Of a DNA stretch of 64,000 bases, positions 6,945 to 64,000 are shown piece by piece; position 1 is the first letter of the stretch; the number at the start of each line of letters is the position of its first letter. The translations under genes were made by a program, and so were the position numbers. Origin of the DNA: Kiloniella sp. EL199 (GTDB lineage Bacteria; Pseudomonadota; Alphaproteobacteria; Kiloniellales; Kiloniellaceae); contig NZ_OMPU01000010.1 in assembly GCF_900313065.1 (NCBI RefSeq), forward strand, positions 806,001 through 870,000, in the 5' to 3' direction. Under the pieces are notes generated by a model. The model ran no database searches. It was given only the letters and a program-made list of their open reading frames with translations, and was not told where the DNA came from.

Positions 6945-8269
6945 ATGCAGTGTCTTTGTCTTCAGATCTGGATGTGGCAAATCCAGACGTCGTTGTCATT
7001 GGTGCAGGAATAGCCGGAGTGACAGCTGCTAGAACATTGATGCAAAAAGGTGTGTCGGTGCTTGTTCTCGAAGCGCGGGATCGTATTGGGGGCAGGGCCT
7101 ATACCGAATGCGAGACTTTTGGCGTTCCCTATGATCATGGCTGCGCATGGCTACATTCTGCAGATAAAAACCCTCTATCATCTTTGGTAAGAGATAAGGC
7201 GGAGTTTGATGTATTTGATTTTGGAAAAAGGGAACCGATTTATTTTGTACATAGATCTCGAGGGGGAAATCGGGGTGGGCGCCGGGCCACGGAACAAGAA
7301 GTCATTGAGATTGAGAAGGCCGAAGACGCACTCTATGATGATTTATGGGGGTATGATGCCGTAAAGAACGGTGATATCTCTATCTATAATTTGCGGCCAC
7401 CAAGGGATCGTTGGGATGAACTTGCTCAATTGCGAAAAGGGCCATTAGAGGCGGGGGTTGATTCCGGTTGTTTGTCGGTCATTGATTATCAAACACAGTA
7501 TGAAACTGGAACCGAATGGATGGTTCCTCAGGGGCTGGCATCCGGAATTTTCAAAGCTCTTGGCCCTGTGCCTGTAAAGTTGGGAACAGTTGTTGAGAAA
7601 GTTGACTGGCAGGGGCAGGATATCAAGCTTCAGTCCAATCAGGGGACGATGACCTGTCGTGTTGTTCTCGTGACAGTTCCCACCGGAGTGATAGCCGATG
7701 AAGCCTTGACGTTTTTGCCTGCATTACCACAGGAAAAGATGGCTGCCTTCCATGAACTGCCAATGGGATTATTGGATAAAATAACCCTTCAGTTTGATAT
7801 TGGCTTCAAATCACTTGTACCTGATGCCAATACAAATGAAGCCTATCTGCAAGCCTCTAAAGGTATAAGGCAGACAGATAGCTGGCACAGCCATCTATTA
7901 TGTCCTTTTGGTGAACCGATGAGTACAATGTTTGTTGGTGGTGATCTTGCCCGTGATCTGACCACTGGAAATGATGAAGCGGCACAGGATTTTGCCTTGT
8001 CATCACTTGCGTCAGTCTTGGGAGAGGATGTAAGAAAGTTTTTCCGAAAAGGTCACAAAACAAAATGGCTTGCTGATCCCTTTGCAAGAGGAGGTTATGC
8101 TTACTCAAATATTGGTAAAAACCATCTTCGGGAAGTTGCGCGTCAGCCTGTAGCTGATCGTTTGTTTTTTGCTGGGGAGGCATTACATGGAAAGTGGGCA
8201 AGTATGGCACCTGGTGCGTACGAGACTGGGAGACAGGCAGCGAATGAGATTATCAACTCAATAGTATGA
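6941..8269 (+). CDS. Flavin-containing amine oxidase
   Basis: A 442-residue FAD enzyme of the monoamine/polyamine oxidase family. The N-terminus has the dinucleotide-binding motif VVVIGAGIAGVTAARTL and the extended RIGGRAYT motif. The C-terminus has LFFAGEALHGKW and the final FAD-contact helix. It oxidises a primary, secondary or polyamine substrate and releases hydrogen peroxide. Its start overlaps the stop of the ArsR gene. A spermidine synthase follows about 100 bases downstream, which makes a polyamine substrate a reasonable inference. Confidence 0.9.
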   Translation: MNAVSLSSDLDVANPDVVVIGAGIAGVTAARTLMQKGVSVLVLEARDRIGGRAYTECETFGVPYDHGCAWLHSADKNPLSSLVRDKAEFDVFDFGKREPIYFVHRSRGGNRGGRRATEQEVIEIEKAEDALYDDLWGYDAVKNGDISIYNLRPPRDRWDELAQLRKGPLEAGVDSGCLSVIDYQTQYETGTEWMVPQGLASGIFKALGPVPVKLGTVVEKVDWQGQDIKLQSNQGTMTCRVVLVTVPTGVIADEALTFLPALPQEKMAAFHELPMGLLDKITLQFDIGFKSLVPDANTNEAYLQASKGIRQTDSWHSHLLCPFGEPMSTMFVGGDLARDLTTGNDEAAQDFALSSLASVLGEDVRKFFRKGHKTKWLADPFARGGYAYSNIGKNHLREVARQPVADRLFFAGEALHGKWASMAPGAYETGRQAANEIINSIV

Positions 8270-8371
8270 TTTTTACCTGGAAAGTATTTTTGGTTGAAAA
8301 TTATAGATTTTTAATACTTAAAATTGTATATCAATAGAAACAGATCAAGCTTATTGAAAGTCAGATAAAAA

Positions 8372-9202
8372 ATGTCTTGGTTCGAAGAAGGTATTCATCC
8401 CGAGATCCGTCAATCAATCCGTCGGGATCAGGTTCTGTTTGAAGGCAAGACAGACTTTCAGCATGTTGAGATTTTCGCAAACGATCTGTTAGGCCGTGTT
8501 CTTGTTCTGGACGATGCTGTTCAGATTACTGAGCACGATGAAGAAATCTATAGCGAAAGCATCGCCCATGTGCCACTGCTCTCGCATCCTGATCCAAAGT
8601 CAGTCTTAATTATCGGGGCTGGTGACGGTACCGTGTTGAGAGAGGTTCTTAAGCATCAAACAGTTCAACAGGTGACAATGGTGGAACTTGATGGCGCTTT
8701 AATTCAGGTGTGTCGAGAGCATCTATCAACACTTCTCGACGATGCATATGATGATCCCCGTTTGAAGTTAGTTATTGGAGATGGCGCTGGATACCTTGTA
8801 TCTGGGGGGCAAAGTTATGATGTTATAATTATTGATTCTACAGATCCTGATGAGAATTCGACTAGCCTCTTTACCGGTAGTTTCTATCAAAATTGCAAGG
8901 CTCGATTAGCAAAGGGGGGCATTATAGTTGCGCAGGCGGGATGCCCGTCTTACCAGCCTTCAATTCTGAATCATATGAAAAACCGGATGCTGTCTCTCTT
9001 TCACTATGGCGGGTTCTATCATGCAGCAATACCAACTTATGTTGGCGGGCTTCATGCTTTTTCTTGGGCAAGTGACTGGGTTGATCTGGCGCAAATGACT
9101 GAACAGTCAGATCCCGGATTCAGGAAAGCTGAATTTACCACGCGTTATTACAGTGACCGTAATCACAAGGCAGCTTTTTATCTGGAGCCTGCTCAAAAGT
9201 AA
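8372..9202 (+). CDS. speE: Spermidine synthase (polyamine aminopropyltransferase)
   Basis: A 276-residue aminopropyltransferase. Motifs in order: the N-terminal beta domain, EEIYSESIAHVPLL, the decarboxylated-SAM site LIIGAGDGTVLREV, the acidic residue of MVELDGALI, the catalytic DSTDP, and IPTYVGGLHAFSWAS. The site glycines read GAGDGT instead of the usual GGGDGG. It transfers an aminopropyl group to putrescine, yielding spermidine and MTA. Its neighbours are an amine oxidase and, further back, MTA nucleosidase. No speD or ornithine decarboxylase gene is in the window. Confidence 0.9.
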   Translation: MSWFEEGIHPEIRQSIRRDQVLFEGKTDFQHVEIFANDLLGRVLVLDDAVQITEHDEEIYSESIAHVPLLSHPDPKSVLIIGAGDGTVLREVLKHQTVQQVTMVELDGALIQVCREHLSTLLDDAYDDPRLKLVIGDGAGYLVSGGQSYDVIIIDSTDPDENSTSLFTGSFYQNCKARLAKGGIIVAQAGCPSYQPSILNHMKNRMLSLFHYGGFYHAAIPTYVGGLHAFSWASDWVDLAQMTEQSDPGFRKAEFTTRYYSDRNHKAAFYLEPAQK

Positions 9203-9320
9203 TATCTCAGACATAATACCTTGATGATGCTTTGGGTTCTTTTATGGTTCTCAGGATGCCTAAGCTTTCCGTCAAAAAACACTCTCACCGTACCCTCTTA
9301 TGGTTGGCGGGGCGAGGTTG

Positions 9321-9833
9321 CTATTGTGATCCTGCCTGACTTTCATTTTTCGCGATCCAGTCCTGGGCTTCTTTTTCGGCTTGTGTTATCTCTTCCGGGG
9401 TCATTTCCTTGGCAATGTCATTCCGCATTTGCTTGGCAAAGAGTTGTAGTTTCTTTGCGCCTTCAATTTTCCGCAGGGTAATCACGTTTAACCATTTGTG
9501 TGCCTTGACCAGTTCGTTGGTAATCAAGAAATAAATACGACCAACCTGAACCTGTGAGAGAAGATGCCCCTGATCTGCAGCCTTTTCGTACCAACTGGCT
9601 GCTGTGGTAACATCCTGTTCTGTGCCCAGACCTTTACTGTACATTTGTCCCAAGGCGTATTGAGCTTCCTGGTCGCCTTGTTCTGCAAGGGGAAGATATA
9701 AGTTGAATGCGGTATTATAATCGCGTTGCTTCACCGCTGTTTTGGCATCTTCCAGGTTATCAGCAAATACCGGAAACGCTAAAGTCAGTAGCATAGCCAA
9801 CGACATTATAAAACGTATGGATAAGCTGCTCAC
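9321..9833 (-). CDS. Secreted Sel1-like repeat protein
   Basis: With the GTG at 9833 the protein has about 170 residues. It begins with a signal peptide ending FPVFA/DN, followed by Sel1 (TPR-like) repeats: LYLPLAEQGDQEAQYALGQMYSKGLG and AASWYEKAADQGHLLSQVQVGRIY. The C-terminal third is charged. The frame continues upstream to 9881, but GGAGAG lies seven bases before the GTG and the signal peptide fits there. Sel1 proteins act as periplasmic scaffolds for protein contacts; no partner is evident. Confidence 0.75.
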   Translation of the reverse strand: MSSLSIRFIMSLAMLLTLAFPVFADNLEDAKTAVKQRDYNTAFNLYLPLAEQGDQEAQYALGQMYSKGLGTEQDVTTAASWYEKAADQGHLLSQVQVGRIYFLITNELVKAHKWLNVITLRKIEGAKKLQLFAKQMRNDIAKEMTPEEITQAEKEAQDWIAKNESQAGSQ

Positions 9834-10051
9834 GATTATTCTCTCCGTTACCATATAAAAAATTGCGTTTAATTTGGGCACCTAATTTGGTTAGGTTCTT
9901 CTGTTGATCATGCCTTTATCCTGTGTCGAGATCAAATACTCTTTTAAAGGTCGTTTTAAACAAGGATTTATGGATTTTAAAGTTAACTGAGTCATGGGAA
10001 AATTGGCAGCTAGCGTACTGAATTTTTTAATGGAACAAGTTCATGTTTTGA

Positions 10052-10080
10052 TTGACAAAATTATTGTTAAACAATAATTA
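10052..10080 (+). promoter_or_regulatory. Promoter with palindromic operator for the DUF2975/XRE pair
   Basis: TTGACA at 10052-10057 and TAATTA at 10075-10080 are separated by 17 bases. AATTATTGTT (10059-10068) and AACAATAATT (10070-10079) form a perfect 10-base inverted repeat with one base between the arms, filling the spacer. A repressor here would block the polymerase; the small XRE protein at the end of the operon is the natural candidate. Confidence 0.6.
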
Positions 10081-10119
10081 TTTGTGAGATTGAATGAATT
10101 TGGAATGTTTGGTGTGTTG

Positions 10120-10647
10120 ATGTCTTTAACTCGGTTTTTGCCTTCTTTTTCTCGCCTGTTGGGAATATTGTTTATTGTGATTAATATCGGTCTTTGGATC
10201 AGCCCTGAGCTTGCGGAATTTCCAGCGCGAGCTTATTCCGGCATGGTTGAGACAGAATTCAATCTTGCTATGAATAATCGTTTGTTTGGCGGGCTTATTT
10301 CTACCGCTCATTTAATAGTTCTGGCGATTGGTTTGACGGCCGTGGGGGGTATATTCAAGCAAATTAATACAGGGCAATGGCACTTGCCCTCATTTAGCCA
10401 GTCTCTTAGGTATTTCGGGGTATCACTTGTTGTCTTTACGCTGCTTATTCCTGTGGTTCAGGCATTGATGAGCCTGGCGTTGACCTATAATAACCCTGTT
10501 GGACAACGCGTGATTACACTGGACCTTGACGCATCTACAGCGCCGATTGCCTTTGTTTTGTTGTTGGTTGGCATCCTCTTGTCTCTGATGGCATCGGTTA
10601 TGATACATGCGGCTAAAATTGCTGAAGAATATGAAAAGATAGTTTAA
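10120..10647 (+). CDS. DUF2975-type membrane protein
   Basis: About 175 residues with four hydrophobic helices, near residues 10-28, 60-80, 105-125 and 145-165. The arrangement and the pairing with a small XRE protein match DUF2975 membrane proteins, whose function is not established. The frame is open from GTG 10084, but the promoter -10 box ends at 10080, so translation should start further in. ATG 10120 is chosen and ATG 10105 is the alternative. The XRE gene follows after 4 bases, so they form one operon. Confidence 0.75.
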   Translation: MSLTRFLPSFSRLLGILFIVINIGLWISPELAEFPARAYSGMVETEFNLAMNNRLFGGLISTAHLIVLAIGLTAVGGIFKQINTGQWHLPSFSQSLRYFGVSLVVFTLLIPVVQALMSLALTYNNPVGQRVITLDLDASTAPIAFVLLLVGILLSLMASVMIHAAKIAEEYEKIV

Positions 10648-10651
10648 TTAG

Positions 10652-10906
10652 ATGGATGATAAATCTGAAACTCTCAAAATTCCTGAAACCGGGCTAGAGC
10701 CGCAAAAAGAAATTATTGTGACGCTGGATGTTATGCTGGCTAAACGAAAAATGCGCTCAAACGAACTGGCAACCAAAGTCGGTATTACCGTGCAAAATCT
10801 TTCGCTTTTAAAATCGGGTAAAGTCAAGGGAATAAGGTTTAATACCTTGCAAAAGATATGCGAAGTTCTCAATTGTAAACCCGGCGATATTCTGGATTAT
10901 GGCTAG
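10652..10906 (+). CDS. Small XRE/Cro-C1 regulator, YozG-like
   Basis: An 84-residue helix-turn-helix protein. The DNA-binding domain covers residues 24-80: MLAKRKMRSNELATKVGITVQNLSLLKSGK, ending LQKICEVLNCKPGDILDY. This is the YozG-like XRE type usually encoded next to a DUF2975 membrane protein. It lies 4 bases after that gene. It probably autoregulates the operon through the palindrome at 10059-10079 (inference). Confidence 0.88.
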   Translation: MDDKSETLKIPETGLEPQKEIIVTLDVMLAKRKMRSNELATKVGITVQNLSLLKSGKVKGIRFNTLQKICEVLNCKPGDILDYG

Positions 10907-11092
10907 TTGGTAGCCACTGGTGCTGTGCCATGCTTTGAAGGCTTGATTATCAAGGGTGGGGGGTGCTTAATTGTGTGATCTTGAGAAAATTCTCGCCATA
11001 GATGATTTTTTTCTGGTATGTTACAACGCTATATTGGATCTCGTGCTTTTGAATAAAGATACATTTATTTAAAAAGAGTGAGGATGGTAAAT

Positions 11093-11958
11093 ATGCGCAC
11101 AGGTTATCTCTTTTCACGGAACGCATTACCAAAATTGTCAGAAAAATTTTATCTGAAATTTCTGCCTTGCTTGTTTTTATCTGTTGGCTTGATTGTTACC
11201 TATTCCACGTCTTTTTCAAAATTGGCATTTGCCCAAACGGTCGTATCTCCGAAAAGCGATAAAATCATTCACATCAGTGTGGGATTTTCTGTCCCTCCCT
11301 ATGTTTTGACAAGTAATAACCGGGGGGCGGAGCTGGATATTGTCAGGGAGGCTATGGCACTTGAGGGATATACAATTATCCCGTTTTATGTATCAAACAA
11401 ACGCCGTAATACAGAGTTTCTTGATGGTGTGACCGATGGTGCTATCACGGTTTCCTCGCAAGAAGAACTGGATGGATTTTATTCAAAAACCTATATTACT
11501 TATCAAAATGTCGCGATTTCGTTGGCTAAAAAGAAGTTGGATATTAATCGCCTGGACGACTTGAAAGGTATGCGTGTAGTTGCCTTTCAGACGGCTTCGA
11601 AAGTTCTGGGAAGCAATTTCGCACACATGATCCAAACCTTTGAGTTTATCAGGAGGTTGCCAAACAGCGCGAACAAATCACCAGACTTTATGCCGGGGAT
11701 GTTGATCTGGTTATTGGTGATAAGAATATCCTGGCCTGGTTTGTTAAAAATGCCCGCTTTCGTGACGGACTTGATACGACACAACCTATTGCCATTCACC
11801 AGGTATTTTTACCAGGGCATAAATATGCGGTGTTTAGAAAGCACGAATTAACTCTGGCTTTTGATCGGGGAGTTGATGCACTAAAAGAAAGTGGTCGCTA
11901 CGATGAAATTCTCGCAGAGTACGGTTTTAATAAGACGCAGAGCGATGATCCTAGTTGA
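11093..11958 (+). pseudogene. Family-3 solute-binding protein, frameshifted
   Basis: The N-terminal frame encodes a signal peptide (ending near AFAQ) and about 165 residues of a periplasmic SBP_bac_3-like domain: ISVGFSVPPYVL, AELDIVREAMALEGY, DGAITVSSQ, LKGMRVVAFQ. Near 11645 the match moves to another frame, which continues YQEVAKQREQI, GDVDLVIGDKNI, HKYAVFRKHE and YDEILAEYGF to a TGA at 11956-11958. One base lost (or two gained) near GAGTTTATCAG explains this. No canonical slippery heptamer is present, so a mutation or sequencing error is more likely than programmed shifting. No ABC permease or ATPase is adjacent. Confidence 0.75.
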
Positions 11959-12221
11959 ATAATAAATTTTCAGAGCTATGAAAGTCTGACCATGGTGACT
12001 TTTTCTACTCTTGTATCTTGATAGTAGTTTTTAAGGTCCGTGGTTTATTCGAGAAATTAATTCTTTGTCAGCCAGTGTTTTTCTCAATTCAGTGATTATA
12101 TTCATCGGTGGCTATTTACGATTTGTCACTGATTTGAAAGGGCCGTGACAGATGCTTGTTGCTTTATTATAACAGCAGGTGAACCCGATCTTTTTACTGA
12201 TAAAATGATGACTGTTTGAAC

Positions 12222-13139
12222 ATGATCAAAATTTTTGGCCATTTGGCACCTGACACAGATGCAACTTGCTCAGCCCTGATATGGGCTTGGTATCTAAAGG
12301 AAATCAAAGGGCAAAAGGCGGAAGCTTTTGTTCTGGAAACACCAAATACAGAAGCACAGTTTGTTGTCAAACGCTGGGGGTTTGAGGTTCCGGCTCTCCT
12401 TGGGGATCTGGAAGTTGGGCAGGATGTTGTGATTGTTGATACCAATAATCCGGCTGAACTGCCAGCGAATGTCAATGACGCCAATATTATTGAGATCATT
12501 GATCATCATTTGCTGGTTGGTGGTATTAAGACAAAACAGCCTATTAATATTACCATCAAGCCTGTCGCATCCACTGCGACTATTATGATTGGAATGATCG
12601 GGGCTGATATTGCCAAAGCGCCAGAGGGAATTAAGGGCTTGATGCTATCATGCATTCTGTCTGATACACTTGAATTCAGAAGCCCAACGACGACAGATGT
12701 AGATCGTAAACTGGCAGCAGAACTTGCGAGTGATTTGGGACTTGATATTCCGACCTATGCCGGAGAAATGTTTGCGGCGAAATCTGATGTTTCTCATTTT
12801 TCCGATGCCGAGTTGCTTCGTCTCGATAGCAAGAAGTATGAGATTGGTGATACAAAGTTCCGCGTTTCTGTTTTGGAAACAACCAGCCCGGAAACAATTT
12901 TTACCCGCAAAGACAGTCTTATGGCATCAATGGGAACTGTTGCTGCCGAAGATGGTATTGATCAGGTTCTTCTTTTTGTCGTGAATATCCTGAAAGAAGA
13001 AGCAACTTTGCTGGTTGCCAATGATCTGGTGAAACAGGTTGCCGAAAAATCTTTTGGTGTCAGCGTTTCTGGCGACAGTGTGGTGTTACCGGGCATTGTA
13101 TCTCGTAAAAAGCAGATTATCCCAAATCTGGCTGTTTAA
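12222..13139 (+). CDS. ppaC: Manganese-dependent inorganic pyrophosphatase
   Basis: A protein of about 305 residues of the family II (DHH) pyrophosphatases. Motifs in order: FGHLAPDTDATCSALI, VIVDTNNPAELP, EIIDHHLLVGG, and the C-terminal SRKKQIIP which binds phosphate in this family. It hydrolyses pyrophosphate to phosphate in the cytoplasm using Mn/Co. The frame is open from TTG 12216; ATG 12222 is the likely start although its ribosome site is weak. A strong terminator follows at 13165. The gene is monocistronic. Confidence 0.93.
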   Translation: MIKIFGHLAPDTDATCSALIWAWYLKEIKGQKAEAFVLETPNTEAQFVVKRWGFEVPALLGDLEVGQDVVIVDTNNPAELPANVNDANIIEIIDHHLLVGGIKTKQPINITIKPVASTATIMIGMIGADIAKAPEGIKGLMLSCILSDTLEFRSPTTTDVDRKLAAELASDLGLDIPTYAGEMFAAKSDVSHFSDAELLRLDSKKYEIGDTKFRVSVLETTSPETIFTRKDSLMASMGTVAAEDGIDQVLLFVVNILKEEATLLVANDLVKQVAEKSFGVSVSGDSVVLPGIVSRKKQIIPNLAV

Positions 13140-43061: not shown

Positions 43062-45434
43062 TTAATCTTTTTTCGGGGCTTTTTTTCGTTTCAAAGCTGA
43101 GGTGCCCGTCTTATCAGCAGTTGGTTTTCCGCCTTTTCCTTTGAATGACTTAGTGCTTGATTTTGGACCTTTGGCGTTATCGCGGAAAGGCTTCTTACCA
43201 AATGGTTTCTTATCACTCTTGCTGCGTTTGTTGCCAGAACCTTCGTTTCGCCCGTTTTCAGAACTATCGTCAAACCAGGGTTTTTTCCCTTTATTGTCCC
43301 GTGGTTCCTGGAACTTGCCATCTGCCCCAAACTTGGCTTTGAACTTGCCTTTTGCCTTTGGATTATGATCTTTCTTTGTGTGATCCCGATCTTTGAAGTC
43401 TTTTCCTTCGGCAGCGCGACGGCTGTATTCTTTACTGCGATCACTTCGATTGAAGTTATCCCGAAACGGTTTTTGCTTATGCTTCTTTTTCCCGTCTTTT
43501 GGGCTACCTTTTCTGCCTTCGCTTCTGTTTATTGTCCTTGGCTTGCGGTGGTATCCGGGGCCGTCCTCATCAAGCGTATCTTCGGGAAGATCCGGGATGC
43601 CTTCGAGGCGTTTAACAGTAATGGTTTTTTCAATCCGGTTGCTGCCCCCAATAGTCTCAAAGAACTTTTCAGCACCTTTAGGGGTAAGTTCTACATGGGT
43701 TTCCGCCATGTGAATACGGATCGCACCGATTTCCTTTTTAGTGATGCAACCCGCGCGACATACCATAGGTAATAGCCATTTGGGATCGGCTGTGTGTTTA
43801 CGCCCGACTGTCATGGAAATCCAGACACCGTCTTCGAAATCTACCCGCTCTTTACGCGTTCCGGGGGCATTGTTGCGCCTGCCGCCATTACCGTATTCAT
43901 ATCCTTTATCACGGTCACGCCCTCTATTATCTCTGCCACTTCGATCTCTTTCTCCTGTTGGTCTTTCTGGGCGGTCAATTAATTCTTCTGGTGCTGGACG
44001 TCCGGCACTTTGAGTACGGATCAACGCGGCGGCAATCTGTTCTGCACCGTGTTTTTCGATAAGCTCTTTGATGAAAGCCTGTTCTTCTTCTTTTACAGGC
44101 TCAATCAGCGTTGGGTTGGCAAGGAAGCGTTCGCGATCACGTTGCAATATTTCTTCTACAGACGGGGGCTTGGCCCATGTTGCGTCAACCCTAGCGCTTT
44201 CCAACAAACGTTCGGTACGCTTGCGCCAGTTATAGGGAACAACAAGGGCGGAAACACCCTTGCGTCCTGCACGACCTGTTCTACCTGATCTGTGCAACAA
44301 CGGTTCGCGGCTTTTGGGAATGTCAGCATGGACCACCAGCTCGAGATCGGGTAAGTCGATACCACGTGCGGCGACATCTGTGGCAATACAGATTTGCGCC
44401 CGACCATCGCGCAGCGCCTGAATAGCATGGCTTCGCAGGTTCTGGCTTAACTCACCAGACAGAGCCACGACTGAAAAACCGCGATTGGAAAAGCGACTGG
44501 TCATATGGTTCACTGTTGCGCGGGTCGCACAGAAAACAATCGCGTTCTTCGGTTCGTAGTAACGCACCAGATTGATAATCGCATTTTCCTTGTCGTTGGG
44601 GGCAACGGTCAGGGCGCGGTATTCAATGTCACTGTGCTGTTTTTCTTCAGCTTTAGTTGTAATCCGTACCGCGTCGCGCTGATAACGCTTGGCAAGCATG
44701 GCAATGCTGCGGGGAACTGTGGCCGAGAACATCAGGGTACGACGTTCTTTCGGTGTGGTATCCAGCATGTATTCCAGATCGTCCCGGAAACCGAGATCAA
44801 GCATCTCATCTGCCTCGTCCAGAACAACGGCCCGTAGTGCACCGATGTTAAGCGAACCCCGTTCGATATGGTCGCGAAGGCGTCCGGGCGTACCAACAAC
44901 AATATGCGCACCGCGTTCCAGCGCCCGTCGTTCGTTACGCATGTCCATACCGCCAACGCAGGTTGCTGTTCTGGCACCTGTATCGCCGTAGAGCCACTCA
45001 AGCTCGCGCATGACCTGCAGGGCAAGTTCACGGGTCGGGGTAATGATAAGCGCAAAGGGGGCATCAGCACGTTTGAAATGATCTTGCTCTTCCAATAGCG
45101 TTGGAGCCAGCGCTATACCAAAAGCAACCGTTTTACCTGATCCTGTTTGTGCAGAAACCAACGCATCCGCATTTGCGAGTTCCGGATCCAGAACAGCTTT
45201 TTGAACCGGGGTCAGGGCTGCATAGCCTTTTTTCGCCAGTGCCTTTGCCAAAGGCGCGGCAACACCTTCAAAGGGATCAGCTTCGATTGCCTCGTCAGTG
45301 GTATCTGTACTTTGGGGTGTGTCCAACTGTTCCTGTTCTGTTATTTCTGTAACTTCTTCTTCTGTGATTTCAGGCGTGTGTTCTTCAGAACTGGGGTCTG
45401 TTGTGTCGTTAACAGGCTTATCCGAGTTGGACAT
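43062..45434 (-). CDS. DEAD-box RNA helicase, DeaD/CsdA type
   Basis: A 790-residue protein. The first 50 residues are acidic and disordered. Motifs follow: Walker A AQTGSGKT (95-102), PTRELA, GTPGR, VLDEAD (206-209), SAT, and HRSGRTGRAGRKG. A DbpA-like RNA-binding domain lies near 530-610 (GVWISMTVGRKHTADPKWLLPMVCR). The last 160 residues are Lys/Arg/Asp-rich and repetitive. This layout is that of DeaD/CsdA helicases, which unwind RNA in ribosome assembly and cold adaptation. It stands alone with a leader of about 250-370 bases. Confidence 0.92.
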   Translation of the reverse strand: MSNSDKPVNDTTDPSSEEHTPEITEEEVTEITEQEQLDTPQSTDTTDEAIEADPFEGVAAPLAKALAKKGYAALTPVQKAVLDPELANADALVSAQTGSGKTVAFGIALAPTLLEEQDHFKRADAPFALIITPTRELALQVMRELEWLYGDTGARTATCVGGMDMRNERRALERGAHIVVGTPGRLRDHIERGSLNIGALRAVVLDEADEMLDLGFRDDLEYMLDTTPKERRTLMFSATVPRSIAMLAKRYQRDAVRITTKAEEKQHSDIEYRALTVAPNDKENAIINLVRYYEPKNAIVFCATRATVNHMTSRFSNRGFSVVALSGELSQNLRSHAIQALRDGRAQICIATDVAARGIDLPDLELVVHADIPKSREPLLHRSGRTGRAGRKGVSALVVPYNWRKRTERLLESARVDATWAKPPSVEEILQRDRERFLANPTLIEPVKEEEQAFIKELIEKHGAEQIAAALIRTQSAGRPAPEELIDRPERPTGERDRSGRDNRGRDRDKGYEYGNGGRRNNAPGTRKERVDFEDGVWISMTVGRKHTADPKWLLPMVCRAGCITKKEIGAIRIHMAETHVELTPKGAEKFFETIGGSNRIEKTITVKRLEGIPDLPEDTLDEDGPGYHRKPRTINRSEGRKGSPKDGKKKHKQKPFRDNFNRSDRSKEYSRRAAEGKDFKDRDHTKKDHNPKAKGKFKAKFGADGKFQEPRDNKGKKPWFDDSSENGRNEGSGNKRSKSDKKPFGKKPFRDNAKGPKSSTKSFKGKGGKPTADKTGTSALKRKKAPKKD

Positions 45435-45811
45435 CTTTTATCTCTCTGATCATAAACAGTAATATCCCACATGGATATTCTGGCTGCACGGCAAAGCCTA
45501 TCAAGTTGATAGTCAAACAAACAGGTGCGGCAGGTGTAACGTGAGCAGGGGCCACAATTTCTTTTGTCTGGCGGGCCCGGTACAAATACTTCAAAACAAT
45601 ACTTTAAAGCTGGCGTCCTTGTACGTTGTGTAACACGGAATGTAAAGCAAACTGGTATTAAACAGTTGGCCTGAACAATTTATCCATTTTGTTGAATGAC
45701 GCTTCTGTCATTTTCAGAGTGAATTGTCTGGAAAAATTGAGTACTCTTGTGGGAAACAGTCATAAAATGCATCAACTAAAAATTAATCACACCAAAACAG
45801 GGGGAAAGGCA
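45435..45811. other. Divergent region between helicase and GFA genes
   Basis: 377 bases with no credible coding frame. It must contain the helicase promoter and leader and the GFA promoter. I see no cold-shock box or riboswitch I could name. Confidence 0.4.
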
Positions 45812-58586: not shown

Positions 58587-61500
58587 TTATTGGGGCGTCG
58601 ACTGGGGTGTCGCTCCATAGCCTTGGCCAATGAGGATAACTCGTTCCGAGGCAGTAGATAAGCCCTGTCGAAGATTATTCCTAGAAGCGATTTCTTTGTC
58701 TCCTGAGGAGATGGCGTCTGGATCTTCCATTGGAAGAATGATGACTGTTGCCGGGCATAATCGGGTTTGGCACTTATTGACAGGAAGGACATAGGCGAGG
58801 CTGATTATATCCAGTTCTCCAAAAGGAAAATCGTGATTTTTCCCTGCAAATTCAATGGTTATTCGTCCGTTGTCCATATAGGATTTTTCATCACTGATTT
58901 TAGGAATGTTATCTCGAGTAATATCCTTTATGAAGCCAATATCACCTGTAACGAGATCTTTATCACGGTCATTCTGTTGTAAAATGACTTTATCGCCAAC
59001 TTTATACCGGGTTCCAAATTTATGCAGATCTAAGCCCGGTTGATGAGTGTTTAGTACGTTTTGGAGTTGAATGGTCAGGTTTTGTGGTCCGAGCATGCCT
59101 GCGGCCATACTTATAACCTGAATGTCTTTTACAGGATTGTATTTAAAGCTTTTGGGTAAACGGTTTTTTATAACTTCGACCAGTTTTCGCTGTGTATCTT
59201 GCTCATTCTCAGCAGTAATAAAATAGAAACTGCCAGGGTTTTGTGTATCAGATGTGTAACTGATGCTTCCGCCGATGCTTAGTTTTAGCGTGTTCTGGGC
59301 AAGTTTGTTGTCTTGGTGTTTCGCAGATAGTTGATCAAGAAAAAGTTTATTGTGATTAATCGTTTCAAGTAGCTTGTCTAGTATCCCACCAGTGCCCGGA
59401 AAAAAGTTATCCGGGGAAGCTGTGGATACATGATGTTTGACAAGAACCAGACTTGCATTCTCAGACAAAGCGTCCAGCAGAGCGAGTAGTGATGATCGGT
59501 CCAATAGATCTGCACGATCAATAATCAGAAGCTGGCAATCCAATGGTTTTCGAGTATTTCGCTTGTAACTTCTATTCCTGGTATTGTATTCAAGCAATCT
59601 GGTCACTGAAATTGCATCAACATCCAGCTCAAAACTTGTTGTTTTTACCTGAGCAGATGAGGGGACTGCGACTACTGTGGATATGTTTTTTGCTGTGACG
59701 ATTTTGACAAAGGCTTTTATAACGTCCGTTTTACCTGTTTCATGAAGACCTTCAAGGACTGTGAACCTGGTTTTCAGCAGTTTTGAAACAGCACTTTTTT
59801 GTCTTTCCGACAACTCAATGTTATCGCGATTAATCACCCAATCAATTGCTTTTTGAGTGTCAATTTCACCCCAAGGAACAATGCCTTCGGATAGTGCATT
59901 AAGACGCTTTTTAATTTTTGTATTGTCTAACCAATCCTGTTTTAGGATCAGGAATTCTTGCGCGGTACCAGTGATATCTTTTCCTCTGTAGAGGTGTATA
60001 TTTTTGGCTTCTATTTCTATAGCCAAAGCTTGTTCAAGGATGTTGGCTGGTATCTCCAGACGCTTATTCAGGAGGGTTAAAAGATTGTTCTTTTCGCGCG
60101 CGTCTGTTGCTTGAACCAATGCATAATATAATGCTGCCCCAGCCCGTTCAAGGCAATGGGCTTCCAACCCCAGACTATGTGCGATGCTATCAGGAACATC
60201 AAAGGGAATACCCTTTATATTGCGGACAATACAATAGGGATTGTTTTTCAACTTCGGGATTGTGTCTTGTCCCAAGGTCTCAAAAAGACGGTAGGATCGA
60301 GCAGGGTCAACATTATGATTGTGCAAGAAGTTTGCAATTTTGGATAATGTTTTTCTTTCCTCAGACCATTCTTCCAGAAGTTTCACCTTTCCCTTTGGCA
60401 GGGATGTTTCGGTTTTAAGTTTTTCCGGGGTTGCTACGATCATTTTCAACGCATCTGGGCCAAAGCTTTCAACCAGTTGCTTTGCGGCTTTAGCTCCCAG
60501 CCCTTTGATCATGCCATCTGATAGTTGCGTCTCAAGATTTGCGAGAACTTTTTCCGGACTTGGTTCTTTGCCGCCAAGGTGTTCATCGAGAAATTCACGG
60601 CAGATATTGAAATCAGATGTATAGCCTTTTGGGAGCTTTACTCCCTTGTTTTGGGCAACGGACTTTGCCGTTTCTTTCATTTTGTCGGTCGGCTTACCCT
60701 TAGCTGCATTTTTGGGCATTGCCACACCGGTGTTGATTTTGGGTGCAGTTGCAGCATTGGTTTTGATAATGCCGATAAGGCGTTTTGTGTCATTACCAAT
60801 ATCATCCCAGACCTGTCTGGCTGTCTGCTTACCTTCGAGAACGTCATCAAGGTTCATTTCCCACATAGCGGTAACGCCGGGATCAACCAACTCAGGCGCT
60901 GCAGTTTTCAGCGTTTTATAAAGGGTCAGGCCTGCTTGCGTCGGGATGATGTGTTTTCCACTCTGGGCAAGGAAATTTTGTAGCTTTAAACCAGTAATCA
61001 CCGCTGCACGTGTGGCCGGTGTGCCGATGCCTTTGGCTTCTTTCAGGCGCTCTTTCAGATCCTTGTTTTCAACAAACCGCCAGGCATTCTGCATGGCGTC
61101 AATCAGGGTTCCTTCGTTGTAGCGTGGCGGTGCTTTGGTTTTCTTGGTGTCGGTTGTCACGGGGGAGAGAACAGCAATATCGCCATCCTGAATAGGAGGA
61201 AGCTCGCCAGCATGATCTTCTTTCTTTTCCATGACATCGGTATAGACGGCTTTCCATCCCTGTTCTTTGGGGATATTACCCGTCACCTTGAAATCCAGTA
61301 TGGTTTCTTTTGTTATTTCTTTATCTGGCCCTGTTTCTTCATCCGGTAAGGTGACGGGAACTTCCATTGAAACACTGGTTGATTCATAGACATAATCAGG
61401 CATTAAAATCGCAAGATATGAGCTGGCGACCAGATCGAACATTCGTTGTTCGTCCTCTGTCAGCCGGCCATAGATGCTCTCGACGCGATCCATAGTATTT

Positions 61501-62630
61501 TTATTGGGGACAATCGCGTGGTGAGAAACACCCTTTAAGCCAGCATCAGAAAAATGACCTGACTTTCCCTTGCGAACTTCCGGCGATGACAGATCAATGC
61601 CTTGGTATTGTGGAAGCTTGGTCAGCCCCTGAATAATCTCACCAATGTCGTCTATTTGATTTTCCGCCAAATAACGGGACTCTGCACGGGGATAGGTCTG
61701 AATTTTCTTGCCTTCCCCATCGTAGAGTTCCTGAGCAATGTTGAGTGTTTTGTCGGCACTCCATCCCCAGCGGCGGGCGCATATCTTTTGCAACTCTGGC
61801 AGATCAAGAAGACGCGGAGGTTTTGTTTTTTTGATCTTTTTTTCTGTTTTAAGCGGTCCTTCGTATCCTTCGACAGCAATGCGCAGTTTTTCTGCCTTTT
61901 CCGGATCAAGAATGCGTTCTTTCGGGGCATGACGAAGGTCCAGTTCGCCAGTTTCTGCCTTGGCTGTTGCGACAAGGTGGAAATAATCCTGAGGAGTAAA
62001 ATCCAGAATTTCCAGCTCTCGCATACAAACGATTGCCATGGTTGGTGTCTTGACGCGTCCAATACCGATAGCACCGTATTGTCCGGGGTGTTTCAGGGCA
62101 ACGGTCGCTGCACGGGTTAGAGACAGATTATAAACCTGATCGGCCTGTTGGCGTACAACAGCGGCTTGCCCTAAGTTGTGATATTTATCATTGGGTTCCA
62201 GGTTTTCAAACGCCTGTCGCAGTGTTTTTTCATCCTGCGCAGTGAACATGGCGCGCTGCACTTGCCCGGCGAATTTATAGTGCCGTAAAATCTCTTCGCC
62301 AATAAGCTGTCCTTCGCGATCACAGTCGGTCGCGATGATGACCCTTTCGGCTGTTTTAAGTGCCTTGGCTATGGCTTCCAGTTTACTTCTTGCAGAAGGT
62401 GATGCATCTGGCGCTGGGCAGGTTGGGTAAAAATCATCGGGCTTGAGCAAGTCAAATGACCAGCGCCCCCAACTGCTTTCAATTTGCTGTGGTTCTTGCA
62501 GGCTTAACAGGTGTCCTTCTGCTGGAAGGATTTGCCCGTATTTACTGCCGATTGCCGCCTGAACATCGCGCTTTTGCGAAGTTTTTTCTGTAATAATAAT
62601 GGTGGACAATCTGAAACCCTTTACCGTCAC
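58587..62630 (-). CDS. DNA topoisomerase III fused to a RecD2-like helicase region
   Basis: A protein of 1347 residues. Residues 8-620 are a type IA topoisomerase: Toprim glutamate in ITEKTSQK (15), DxD in ATDCDREGQ (102-104), and catalytic Tyr320 in RAESRYLAE. Residues 690-1335 follow RecD2: helix-hairpin-helix repeats (MIKGLGAKAAKQLVESFG), SERQKSAVSKLL, Walker A GLHETGKT (961-968), then degenerate motifs, with DRAD in place of DEAS (1038) and no GDxxQLP or motif VI arginine. Topoisomerase III is usually 600-700 residues, so this is a fusion about twice the normal size. GTG 62630 has a poor ribosome site; TTG 62609, after AAAGGG, is likely the true start. Confidence 0.9.
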   Translation of the reverse strand: MTVKGFRLSTIIITEKTSQKRDVQAAIGSKYGQILPAEGHLLSLQEPQQIESSWGRWSFDLLKPDDFYPTCPAPDASPSARSKLEAIAKALKTAERVIIATDCDREGQLIGEEILRHYKFAGQVQRAMFTAQDEKTLRQAFENLEPNDKYHNLGQAAVVRQQADQVYNLSLTRAATVALKHPGQYGAIGIGRVKTPTMAIVCMRELEILDFTPQDYFHLVATAKAETGELDLRHAPKERILDPEKAEKLRIAVEGYEGPLKTEKKIKKTKPPRLLDLPELQKICARRWGWSADKTLNIAQELYDGEGKKIQTYPRAESRYLAENQIDDIGEIIQGLTKLPQYQGIDLSSPEVRKGKSGHFSDAGLKGVSHHAIVPNKNTMDRVESIYGRLTEDEQRMFDLVASSYLAILMPDYVYESTSVSMEVPVTLPDEETGPDKEITKETILDFKVTGNIPKEQGWKAVYTDVMEKKEDHAGELPPIQDGDIAVLSPVTTDTKKTKAPPRYNEGTLIDAMQNAWRFVENKDLKERLKEAKGIGTPATRAAVITGLKLQNFLAQSGKHIIPTQAGLTLYKTLKTAAPELVDPGVTAMWEMNLDDVLEGKQTARQVWDDIGNDTKRLIGIIKTNAATAPKINTGVAMPKNAAKGKPTDKMKETAKSVAQNKGVKLPKGYTSDFNICREFLDEHLGGKEPSPEKVLANLETQLSDGMIKGLGAKAAKQLVESFGPDALKMIVATPEKLKTETSLPKGKVKLLEEWSEERKTLSKIANFLHNHNVDPARSYRLFETLGQDTIPKLKNNPYCIVRNIKGIPFDVPDSIAHSLGLEAHCLERAGAALYYALVQATDAREKNNLLTLLNKRLEIPANILEQALAIEIEAKNIHLYRGKDITGTAQEFLILKQDWLDNTKIKKRLNALSEGIVPWGEIDTQKAIDWVINRDNIELSERQKSAVSKLLKTRFTVLEGLHETGKTDVIKAFVKIVTAKNISTVVAVPSSAQVKTTSFELDVDAISVTRLLEYNTRNRSYKRNTRKPLDCQLLIIDRADLLDRSSLLALLDALSENASLVLVKHHVSTASPDNFFPGTGGILDKLLETINHNKLFLDQLSAKHQDNKLAQNTLKLSIGGSISYTSDTQNPGSFYFITAENEQDTQRKLVEVIKNRLPKSFKYNPVKDIQVISMAAGMLGPQNLTIQLQNVLNTHQPGLDLHKFGTRYKVGDKVILQQNDRDKDLVTGDIGFIKDITRDNIPKISDEKSYMDNGRITIEFAGKNHDFPFGELDIISLAYVLPVNKCQTRLCPATVIILPMEDPDAISSGDKEIASRNNLRQGLSTASERVILIGQGYGATPQSTPQ

Positions 62631-62814: not shown

Positions 62815-62858
62815 AATAGCTCTTCCCCATTTCTGTTTTATATCTGGTGGGAGGAAAA

Positions 62859-63317
62859 ATGAGTGATCCGGATTTAAAGCAGCAGTTGACGGAGCGGCAA
62901 AAAAGGTTTGTTGAAGAATACCTTATTGACTTCAATGCAACGCAAGCTGCCATTCGGGCGGGTTATAGTCCTAACTCGGTTAAGCAGAGTGCCAGCCGAA
63001 CACTGAAAAATCCCCTGATGCAAGAGGCTATTGAGCAAGCCAAGGCCGCGCGATCTCAGAGGCTGCAGATTGATGCTGACTACGTTCTGAAGGGCGCGGT
63101 TGAGCTGTTTGAACGTTGTATGCAGCGCAGCCCGGCTGCTGATGCAGATGGTGAATACAAATTTCAGCATACGGGGGCTGGGAAAGCGCTAGAGATTATC
63201 GGACGACATGTGTCGGTTCAGGCTTTTAAGGAAAAGGTTGAAATGTCGATCGAAAATGAACTTATTGACCGCCTCATGCGTGGTCGTAAGCGCCTGAATG
63301 ACAAATCAGAAAATTGA
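62859..63317 (+). CDS. Phage terminase small subunit
   Basis: A 152-residue protein. The N-terminal helix-turn-helix LTERQKRFVEEYLIDFNATQAAIRAGYSPNSVKQSASRTLKNP is the Terminase_2 signature that recognises the packaging site. The C-terminal part is charged and probably oligomerises. GGGAGG precedes ATG 62859 with ideal spacing. The large subunit follows on the same strand. No integrase or repressor is visible to the left. Confidence 0.92.
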   Translation: MSDPDLKQQLTERQKRFVEEYLIDFNATQAAIRAGYSPNSVKQSASRTLKNPLMQEAIEQAKAARSQRLQIDADYVLKGAVELFERCMQRSPAADADGEYKFQHTGAGKALEIIGRHVSVQAFKEKVEMSIENELIDRLMRGRKRLNDKSEN

Positions 63318-63380
63318 ATGGATTTCATTTAGTTTTCTGATTTCTGATCACTATTTTTCCATCTGATTTTGAGGTGTCTG

Positions 63381-64000
63381 ATGACCCACCGGGTTGATCT
63401 GGATCTTGCCGAGGACTGTGCGCAGTTCTATGCGGATCCGCTGGGGTTTGTGCTGTGGGCCTTTGATTGGGGGCAGGGCGAGTTGGTTGATTTTGAAGGT
63501 CCGCGCGATTGGCAGTTGGCTTATCTGAAAGATCTGGGTGCACAGATCAGAGAGCGCGGGTTTGATGGGCTTCATCCCGTTGCCCCCATGGATATGGCAA
63601 CGGCATCCGGCCACGGTATTGGCAAGTCGGCAATGTCAGCGTGGCTTATCCTCTTTATCATGTCAACGCGACCCTTTGCCAAGGGAGTGGTGACATCGAA
63701 TACCAGCGATCAGCTACGCACGAAAACCTGGGCCGAGCTGGGGAAGTGGCACAAGCGTTGTCTGACGGGGCATTGGTTTAGCTATAGCACCAGCAAAGGG
63801 AATATGGCGCTGGTCCATAAACGCCACCCTGAAAGCTGGCGGTGTGATGCGCAGACCTGTCGCGAGGAAAATTCCGAGAGTTTTGCCGGACTGCATGCCG
63901 CAAATTCGACGCCCTTTTATCTTTTTGATGAAGCCAGTGCTGTGCCTGATAAAATCTGGGAAGTTTCTGATGGTGGTTTGACCGATGGCGAACCTATGCG
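63381..64000 (+). CDS. Phage terminase large subunit, N-terminal part
   Basis: The frame runs off the right edge; 206 codons are present. Walker A is ASGHGIGKSAMSAW near residue 75 and Walker B is FYLFDEASAVPD near residue 180, giving the packaging ATPase. GAGG precedes the ATG at 63381. Three counted lines inside the gene (63421-63600) have about 56% G+C, higher than the host genes I counted, which supports transfer from elsewhere. The nuclease domain lies beyond the window. Confidence 0.9.
   Translation, partial: MTHRVDLDLAEDCAQFYADPLGFVLWAFDWGQGELVDFEGPRDWQLAYLKDLGAQIRERGFDGLHPVAPMDMATASGHGIGKSAMSAWLILFIMSTRPFAKGVVTSNTSDQLRTKTWAELGKWHKRCLTGHWFSYSTSKGNMALVHKRHPESWRCDAQTCREENSESFAGLHAANSTPFYLFDEASAVPDKIWEVSDGGLTDGEPM

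Follow-up and report, generated by a model that had tools for sequence, protein, structure and literature searches.

A topoisomerase III of Kiloniella fused to a RecD2-like half with eroded helicase motifs

The DNA analysed here is a stretch of 64,000 nucleotides from Kiloniella sp. EL199 (the window), in which a single gene on the minus strand, at 58587-62630 (G000:C19:864590-868630 in the assembly), encodes a topoisomerase III joined to a half related to the helicase RecD2. The open reading frame has 1347 codons plus the stop and contains no internal stop codon. The junction of the two parts was placed at about residue 692. The topoisomerase III comprises residues 1 to ~690 and retains the tail of its stand-alone relatives, which align up to residue ~684-708, and the RecD2-like half (residues ~695-1347, below the C half) starts at the first helix-hairpin-helix (HhH). 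A sequencing or assembly artefact was considered and rejected, because 14 full-length sequences show the same fusion; they come from several genomes independent of each other, some of which are represented in two collections. The combination of a bacterial topoisomerase III and a RecD2-type half in one protein is real. The features of the gene are listed in Table 1.

Judged by its residues, the catalytic half is an intact type IA topoisomerase III. It was matched by Pfam Topoisom_bac (2.4e-86, residues 149-607) and Toprim (6.6e-14, residues 10-119), and the NCBIfam topB match spans residues 34-663. Glu15, Asp102, Asp104 and Tyr313 were invariant in the 12 fusion proteins aligned. A preliminary description of this DNA had already reported the type IA motifs in one frame, correctly for Glu15 and the Asp102/Asp104 pair; its choice of Tyr320 as the catalytic tyrosine was not borne out, since alignment with E. 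coli topoisomerase III gave Tyr313. The ratio of nonsynonymous to synonymous substitution (dN/dS) of this half was ~0.02-0.05 (Nei-Gojobori, several pairs saturated).

The relationship of the C half to RecD2 was evident from the NCBIfam model TIGR01448, which matched residues 697-1336 with an E value of 5.3e-87, at a score (292.6 bits) under the equivalog cut-off of 500. Besides HHH_RecD2, Pfam detected AAA_30 (3.1e-12, residues 939-1068), and SH3_13 came slightly under its cut-off. No Pfam match was obtained in the fusion protein for UvrD_C_2 or for the N-terminal OB domain of RecD2 (PF23139), both of which were detected in stand-alone RecD2s. The domain order HhH-1A-2A-SH3 is that of RecD2. 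An AlphaFold2 model of the C half had the RecD2 fold with a mean predicted local distance difference test score (pLDDT) of 84.9 and a predicted template modelling score (pTM) of 0.79, and the closest PDB structures to it were those of D. radiodurans RecD2, with Z scores of 31.7 (3e1s), 30.9 (3gp8) and 28.9. As the alignment used for modelling contained stand-alone RecD2s, the model is evidence for the compatibility of sequence and fold and not for ATP binding at the site. The domain content in the preliminary description was thus confirmed for Toprim, Topoisom_bac, HHH_RecD2 and AAA_30. The proposed RecD2 order of the C half held for the HhH repeats and only partly for the Walker A motif at 961-968, which is not fully canonical, and the UvrD_C_2-like end was not detected by Pfam. 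Two fusions from Kiloniella laminariae (L007:10001-14440 and L012:9983-14494) carry long insertions in this half, after residues ~1117 and ~1250, which bring them to 1480-1504 aa.

The state of the motor was assessed in an alignment of the 12 fusion proteins with 16 stand-alone alphaproteobacterial RecD2s, in which seven catalytic residues were scored (K967, T968, D1038, E1039, Q1069, R1103 and R1326). All seven were present in every stand-alone RecD2 (16/16), and each of the 12 fusions kept between none and three. The Walker B glutamate, Glu1039, occurred in 16/16 stand-alone proteins and in 0/12 fusions. The motif IV arginine was lost in all 12 fusions and the arginine finger of motif VI in 11 of them; in Walker A, Lys967 was kept in 8/12 and Thr968 in one only. 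Motifs I (GGPGxGKT), Ia (APTGRAA), II (DE), III (GDxxQLPS), IV (FRQ), V (HKSQGSEY) and VI (YTxxTR) were eroded in all fusions and intact in all stand-alone RecD2s. Columns invariant in RecD2 were retained at 22% within the motifs, at 54% elsewhere in the RecA-like domains and at 66% in the HhH part (Fisher p = 3e-4, a value inflated by the relatedness of the sequences). By this comparison the loss of the motifs is targeted, and the RecD2-like half is probably a pseudo-helicase without a usable superfamily 1B (SF1B) ATPase site. Because the motor motifs are not intact, the C half would be a relative of RecD2 and not a functional member of it.

Table 1. Features of the fusion gene, in window coordinates; residue numbers refer to the encoded protein
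Feature	Position	Strand	Basis or remark
Whole fusion gene, topoisomerase III - pseudo-RecD2 (probable)	58587..62630	-	Single open frame; orthologues of 1279-1504 aa in Kiloniella, Sneathiella, Aestuariispira
Complete topoisomerase III half including C-terminal tail (1-690)	60561..62630	-	Pfam/NCBIfam topB; stand-alone homologues; dN/dS ~0.02
Toprim domain (10-119) with Glu15, Asp102, Asp104	62274..62603	-	Pfam Toprim; three residues invariant in 12 fusion proteins
Catalytic Tyr313 (motif QTYPRAESRYL)	61692..61694	-	Alignment with ITYPR tyrosine of E. coli topoisomerase III 1d6m; invariant
First helix-hairpin-helix region (695-760)	60351..60548	-	Alignment with stand-alone RecD2; Gly710, Ala716 invariant
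HHH_RecD2 domain (759-842)	60105..60356	-	Pfam PF14490, E 1.5e-17; HhH is the best-kept part of the helicase half
RecA-like domain 1A (931-1110), probably motor-dead	59301..59840	-	AAA_30; fold in AlphaFold2 model; motifs I, Ia, II, III, IV eroded
Degenerate Walker A, GLHETGKT (961-968)	59727..59750	-	RecD2 consensus GGPGxGKT
Degenerate Walker B, LLIIDR (1034-1039), catalytic Glu replaced	59514..59531	-	Alignment with stand-alone RecD2
SH3_13 domain (1188-1241)	58908..59069	-	Pfam PF18335, E 3.9e-10, slightly under gathering score
Degenerate motif V, NKCQTRLC instead of HKSQGSEY (1285-1292)	58755..58778	-	Alignment
Degenerate motif VI, RQGLSTAS instead of YTGVTRGK (1321-1328), arginine finger lost	58647..58670	-	Alignment

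We consider it probable that the protein is a chromosomal topoisomerase III whose pseudo-helicase C-terminal domain serves as a passive docking module for DNA or a partner. The topoisomerase half would cut and pass single strands in the manner of every topoisomerase III, in decatenation and in the resolution of recombination intermediates and precatenanes, and unwinding would come from a separate motor in trans. This could perhaps be the intact RecQ encoded in the genome, which scored above its curated cut-off; no second topoisomerase III or RecD2 was found in the genome besides the fusion. The dead RecD2 half, with its HhH, 2B and SH3 parts, would anchor the enzyme to DNA that is single-stranded or forked, to a partner protein or to both, taking the place of the short basic tail or the zinc ribbons of other topoisomerases. 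It would neither translocate nor unwind, and the enzyme would not be driven by ATP. A further-reaching version, which can be offered only tentatively, is that the family forms a class of type IA topoisomerases not recognised before, whose motor-dead RecD2 acts, with no need of ATP, as a clamp or a guide for the strand and sets the choice of substrate (forks, gapped recombination intermediates), possibly coupled to RecQ in trans. If true, this would be a helicase-topoisomerase fusion that has kept its architecture and lost its motor.

Several observations weigh against this reading. Erosion in the window copy is among the mildest, with the GKT of Walker A and the Asp of Walker B kept, and nucleotide binding without hydrolysis is possible in the Kiloniella copy. 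The residues of motifs Ia and V that touch single-stranded DNA were lost as well; the grip of the RecA-like groove on single-stranded DNA may be weakened, and binding may proceed through the HhH and SH3 parts or be aimed at protein. In net charge the C half was no more basic than RecD2, the charge analysis being uninformative, and the partnership with RecQ is one that we infer. Finally, the evolutionary rate of the C half is several times that of the N half, which is also compatible with slow decay.

If decay were all there was to it, the RecD2-like half would be a functionless passenger, disintegrating since the fusion, and the topoisomerase half alone would matter. The disappearance of the motor motifs would agree with this, as would the divergence between families, where the C half is ~25-40% identical and the N half >70%. 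However, about 650 codons of the C half are open in all 14 full-length sequences despite saturated dS, and its dN/dS, 0.05-0.34 by region and mostly 0.08-0.26 (calculated as above, with the same saturation), lies far below 1, which is the pattern of purifying selection. The confident fold prediction and the presence of specific positions invariant among the fusions (e.g. G710, P798, Y799, D814, R829, N1156, R1157, K1214 and D1274) also speak against a passenger, and we regard this explanation as unlikely.

The dead helicase might alternatively be a pure protein scaffold that holds RecQ, SSB or some other partner and makes little contact with DNA itself. Inactivated helicase folds in AddB or RecC provide a parallel. 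The DNA-contact motifs Ia and V were lost along with the catalytic ones, the genome has its intact RecQ, and residues are invariant within the fusions, all of which would suit a scaffold; the HhH elements, which are typical DNA binders, are nevertheless the best preserved, and a role confined to protein contacts appears more unlikely still. A module that docks on DNA, a partner or both remains our preferred reading of the C half.

Of the Kiloniella genomes searched, all eight near-complete ones had a full-length orthologue; others came from four of the 26 Sneathiella-order genomes (one in pieces) and from Aestuariispira, and the lengths were 1279-1504 aa (Table 1). Identity to the named Kiloniella orthologues was 81-86%. 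Two samples, one of 289 Alphaproteobacteria and one of 398 Pseudomonadota, had the fused frame in none of their other genomes. In maximum-likelihood trees (short searches without bootstrap, the N-half tree with long outgroup branches) the fusions formed one fully supported clade, both for the N half against stand-alone relatives and for the C half against stand-alone alphaproteobacterial RecD2s, with the same two main groups in each tree. The simplest reading of these trees would be a single fusion event, followed by joint inheritance and patchy loss or transfer. A possible unfused counterpart was seen on an alphaproteobacterial contig (G139:C47; L079), where a related topoisomerase III (7981-10314) and an intact RecD2 (10753-12939) lie on the same strand ~440 bp apart, and on Aneurinibacillus and Geobacillus plasmids topoisomerase IA and RecD-like genes occur within a few genes of each other. 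Since most stand-alone relatives of the topoisomerase half have no RecD2 neighbour, an origin from formerly neighbouring genes is a lead only. Another intact RecD2 gene (L098:6034-8232) lies between apparently identical inverted insertion-sequence pieces (L098:127-1090 and 8415-9378), which suggests a mobile composite element.

The fusion gene is adjoined, in divergent orientation, by terminase genes (TerS at 62847-63317, TerL from 63369), and in Kiloniella these are followed by variable genes and then by podovirus-type genes for portal, head and tail. The terminase neighbours had been noted in the preliminary description, which proposed a role in replication or packaging of mobile DNA or in defence. 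The neighbours were confirmed and the role was not, as the association is limited to Kiloniella: the Aestuariispira and Sneathiella relatives have no phage context and their fusion gene stands among host genes. Next to it, in Aestuariispira and in one genome of Sneathiella, lies a DEAD-box helicase gene with a homologue at 43065-45437 in the window, 13 kb from the fusion. This shared neighbour suggests a host locus that the phage cassette entered later, in the Kiloniella lineage. A gene of a phage or mobile element, for packaging, phage replication or defence, is in our view very improbable. The position at or near the edge of two IMG/VR contigs, predicted proviruses, could be quoted for it, but at 81-85% identity these are as expected for prophage predictions from Kiloniella; the matches to the PADLOC models DpdF, RecD-like and typeIV_RecD carry little weight when ordinary stand-alone topoisomerase III and RecD2 score better on the same models; and among 50,697 phage and 72,556 plasmid records none contained a full-length fusion. 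With host context in the relatives outside Kiloniella, this explanation was rejected.

The podovirus-type cassette itself (TerS, TerL, portal, protease, major head and tail genes) occupies 62847-64000 of the window and extends to about 899000 of G000:C19 (L071, L072). Its portal gene was present in 7/9 Kiloniella genomes and stood beside the fusion gene wherever one contig held both. The portal proteins were 85-97% identical and the major head proteins 99%, the latter with dN/dS of 0.006-0.009 at a dS of 0.6. The cassette is a candidate domesticated phage or gene-transfer-agent-like element; a survey of gene transfer agents listed no RcGTA-like clusters in Kiloniellales (PMC6821227). The interval between TerL and portal (L071:5850-13710) holds strain-variable genes, with a transposase-like pair at 7210-7988, and differs among Kiloniella species.

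Least probable of all is that the protein works as a motor, an active SF1B helicase coupled to a topoisomerase in the manner of reverse gyrase but of other design. The RecD2 homology across the whole C half and the partly preserved Walker motifs of the window copy might invite this idea, which was rejected on the motif analysis, because no member has an intact set and the Glu of motif II and the Arg of motif IV (12/12), the arginine finger (11/12) and the Walker A Thr (11/12) are lost. The idea raised in the preliminary description, that the fusion creates a new activity as in reverse gyrase, was accordingly not upheld; its expectation of a layout other than that of reverse gyrase was.

No description of a topoisomerase III-RecD2 fusion was found in the literature searched (open-licence papers only), and in the genomes searched the fusion occurred in few lineages. 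Its N half is 43-56% identical over residues 1 to ~700 to TopB of the alphaproteobacterial plasmid/chromosomal subgroup and has all catalytic residues, but the known members of that subgroup end at about 700-860 aa and have no helicase half. The C half resembles RecD2, an SF1B 5'-3' helicase, in fold and domain order, with 3e1s and 3gp8 as the nearest solved structures, and differs from it by lacking the OB domain, by its destroyed catalytic motifs and by being joined to topoisomerase III. Among fusions of a helicase with a topoisomerase, reverse gyrase and the PADLOC model DpdF come closest. Reverse gyrase likewise joins a type IA topoisomerase to a helicase fold, but its helicase is an active superfamily 2 (SF2) enzyme at the N-terminus, whereas the fold here is a C-terminal and, by its motifs, dead SF1B; the reverse gyrase (rgy) model scored far below cut-off on the fusion, with its best stretch in the topoisomerase half. 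Fusions of this kind are rare, and they are cited as machines with energy coupling; the present lineage would have taken the opposite route.

The DpdF model (PDLC02865, Dpd defence) also places a helicase C-terminal to an N half of topoisomerase III type. Its profile matches the topoisomerase half of the fusion at 61-663 and the RecQ of the genome at 748-1099 and 1430-1496, and because these matches fall in consecutive parts the model appears to describe a topoisomerase III-RecQ/HRDC fusion. A C-terminal helicase on topoisomerase III is therefore not unique. The helicase of DpdF is a RecQ-type SF2 enzyme in a defence context, however, whereas the fusion carries RecD2; the model covers only its topoisomerase half, and the RecQ-type helicase half was not matched. 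This architecture would also explain why ordinary topB and recQ genes match the model strongly, which calls for caution in scans for defence systems. Similarly, neither this RecD2-like domain nor AAA/RecD matches in defence-gene scans should be annotated as an active motor.

Helicase folds that outlive their motor are known elsewhere. The PriA of D. radiodurans is a pseudohelicase that has lost its motifs and retained DNA binding and a role (PMC4504706), although it belongs to another helicase family and stands alone, unlike the fusion. TraI, the F/R1 relaxase, contains a vestigial RecD-like domain that has lost helicase activity and kept binding of single-stranded DNA (PMC3912908, PMC5422253), and by analogy it is the closest mechanistic precedent for the dead RecD2 module. 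There, too, a dead RecD-like fold is joined to a strand-cutting enzyme, the differences being that the partner is a relaxase and that TraI has a second, active RecD-like domain. With a fold of ~650 residues kept and the engine gone in every member, this lineage would offer a compact natural setting in which to examine what a topoisomerase gains from a helicase fold other than unwinding powered by ATP.

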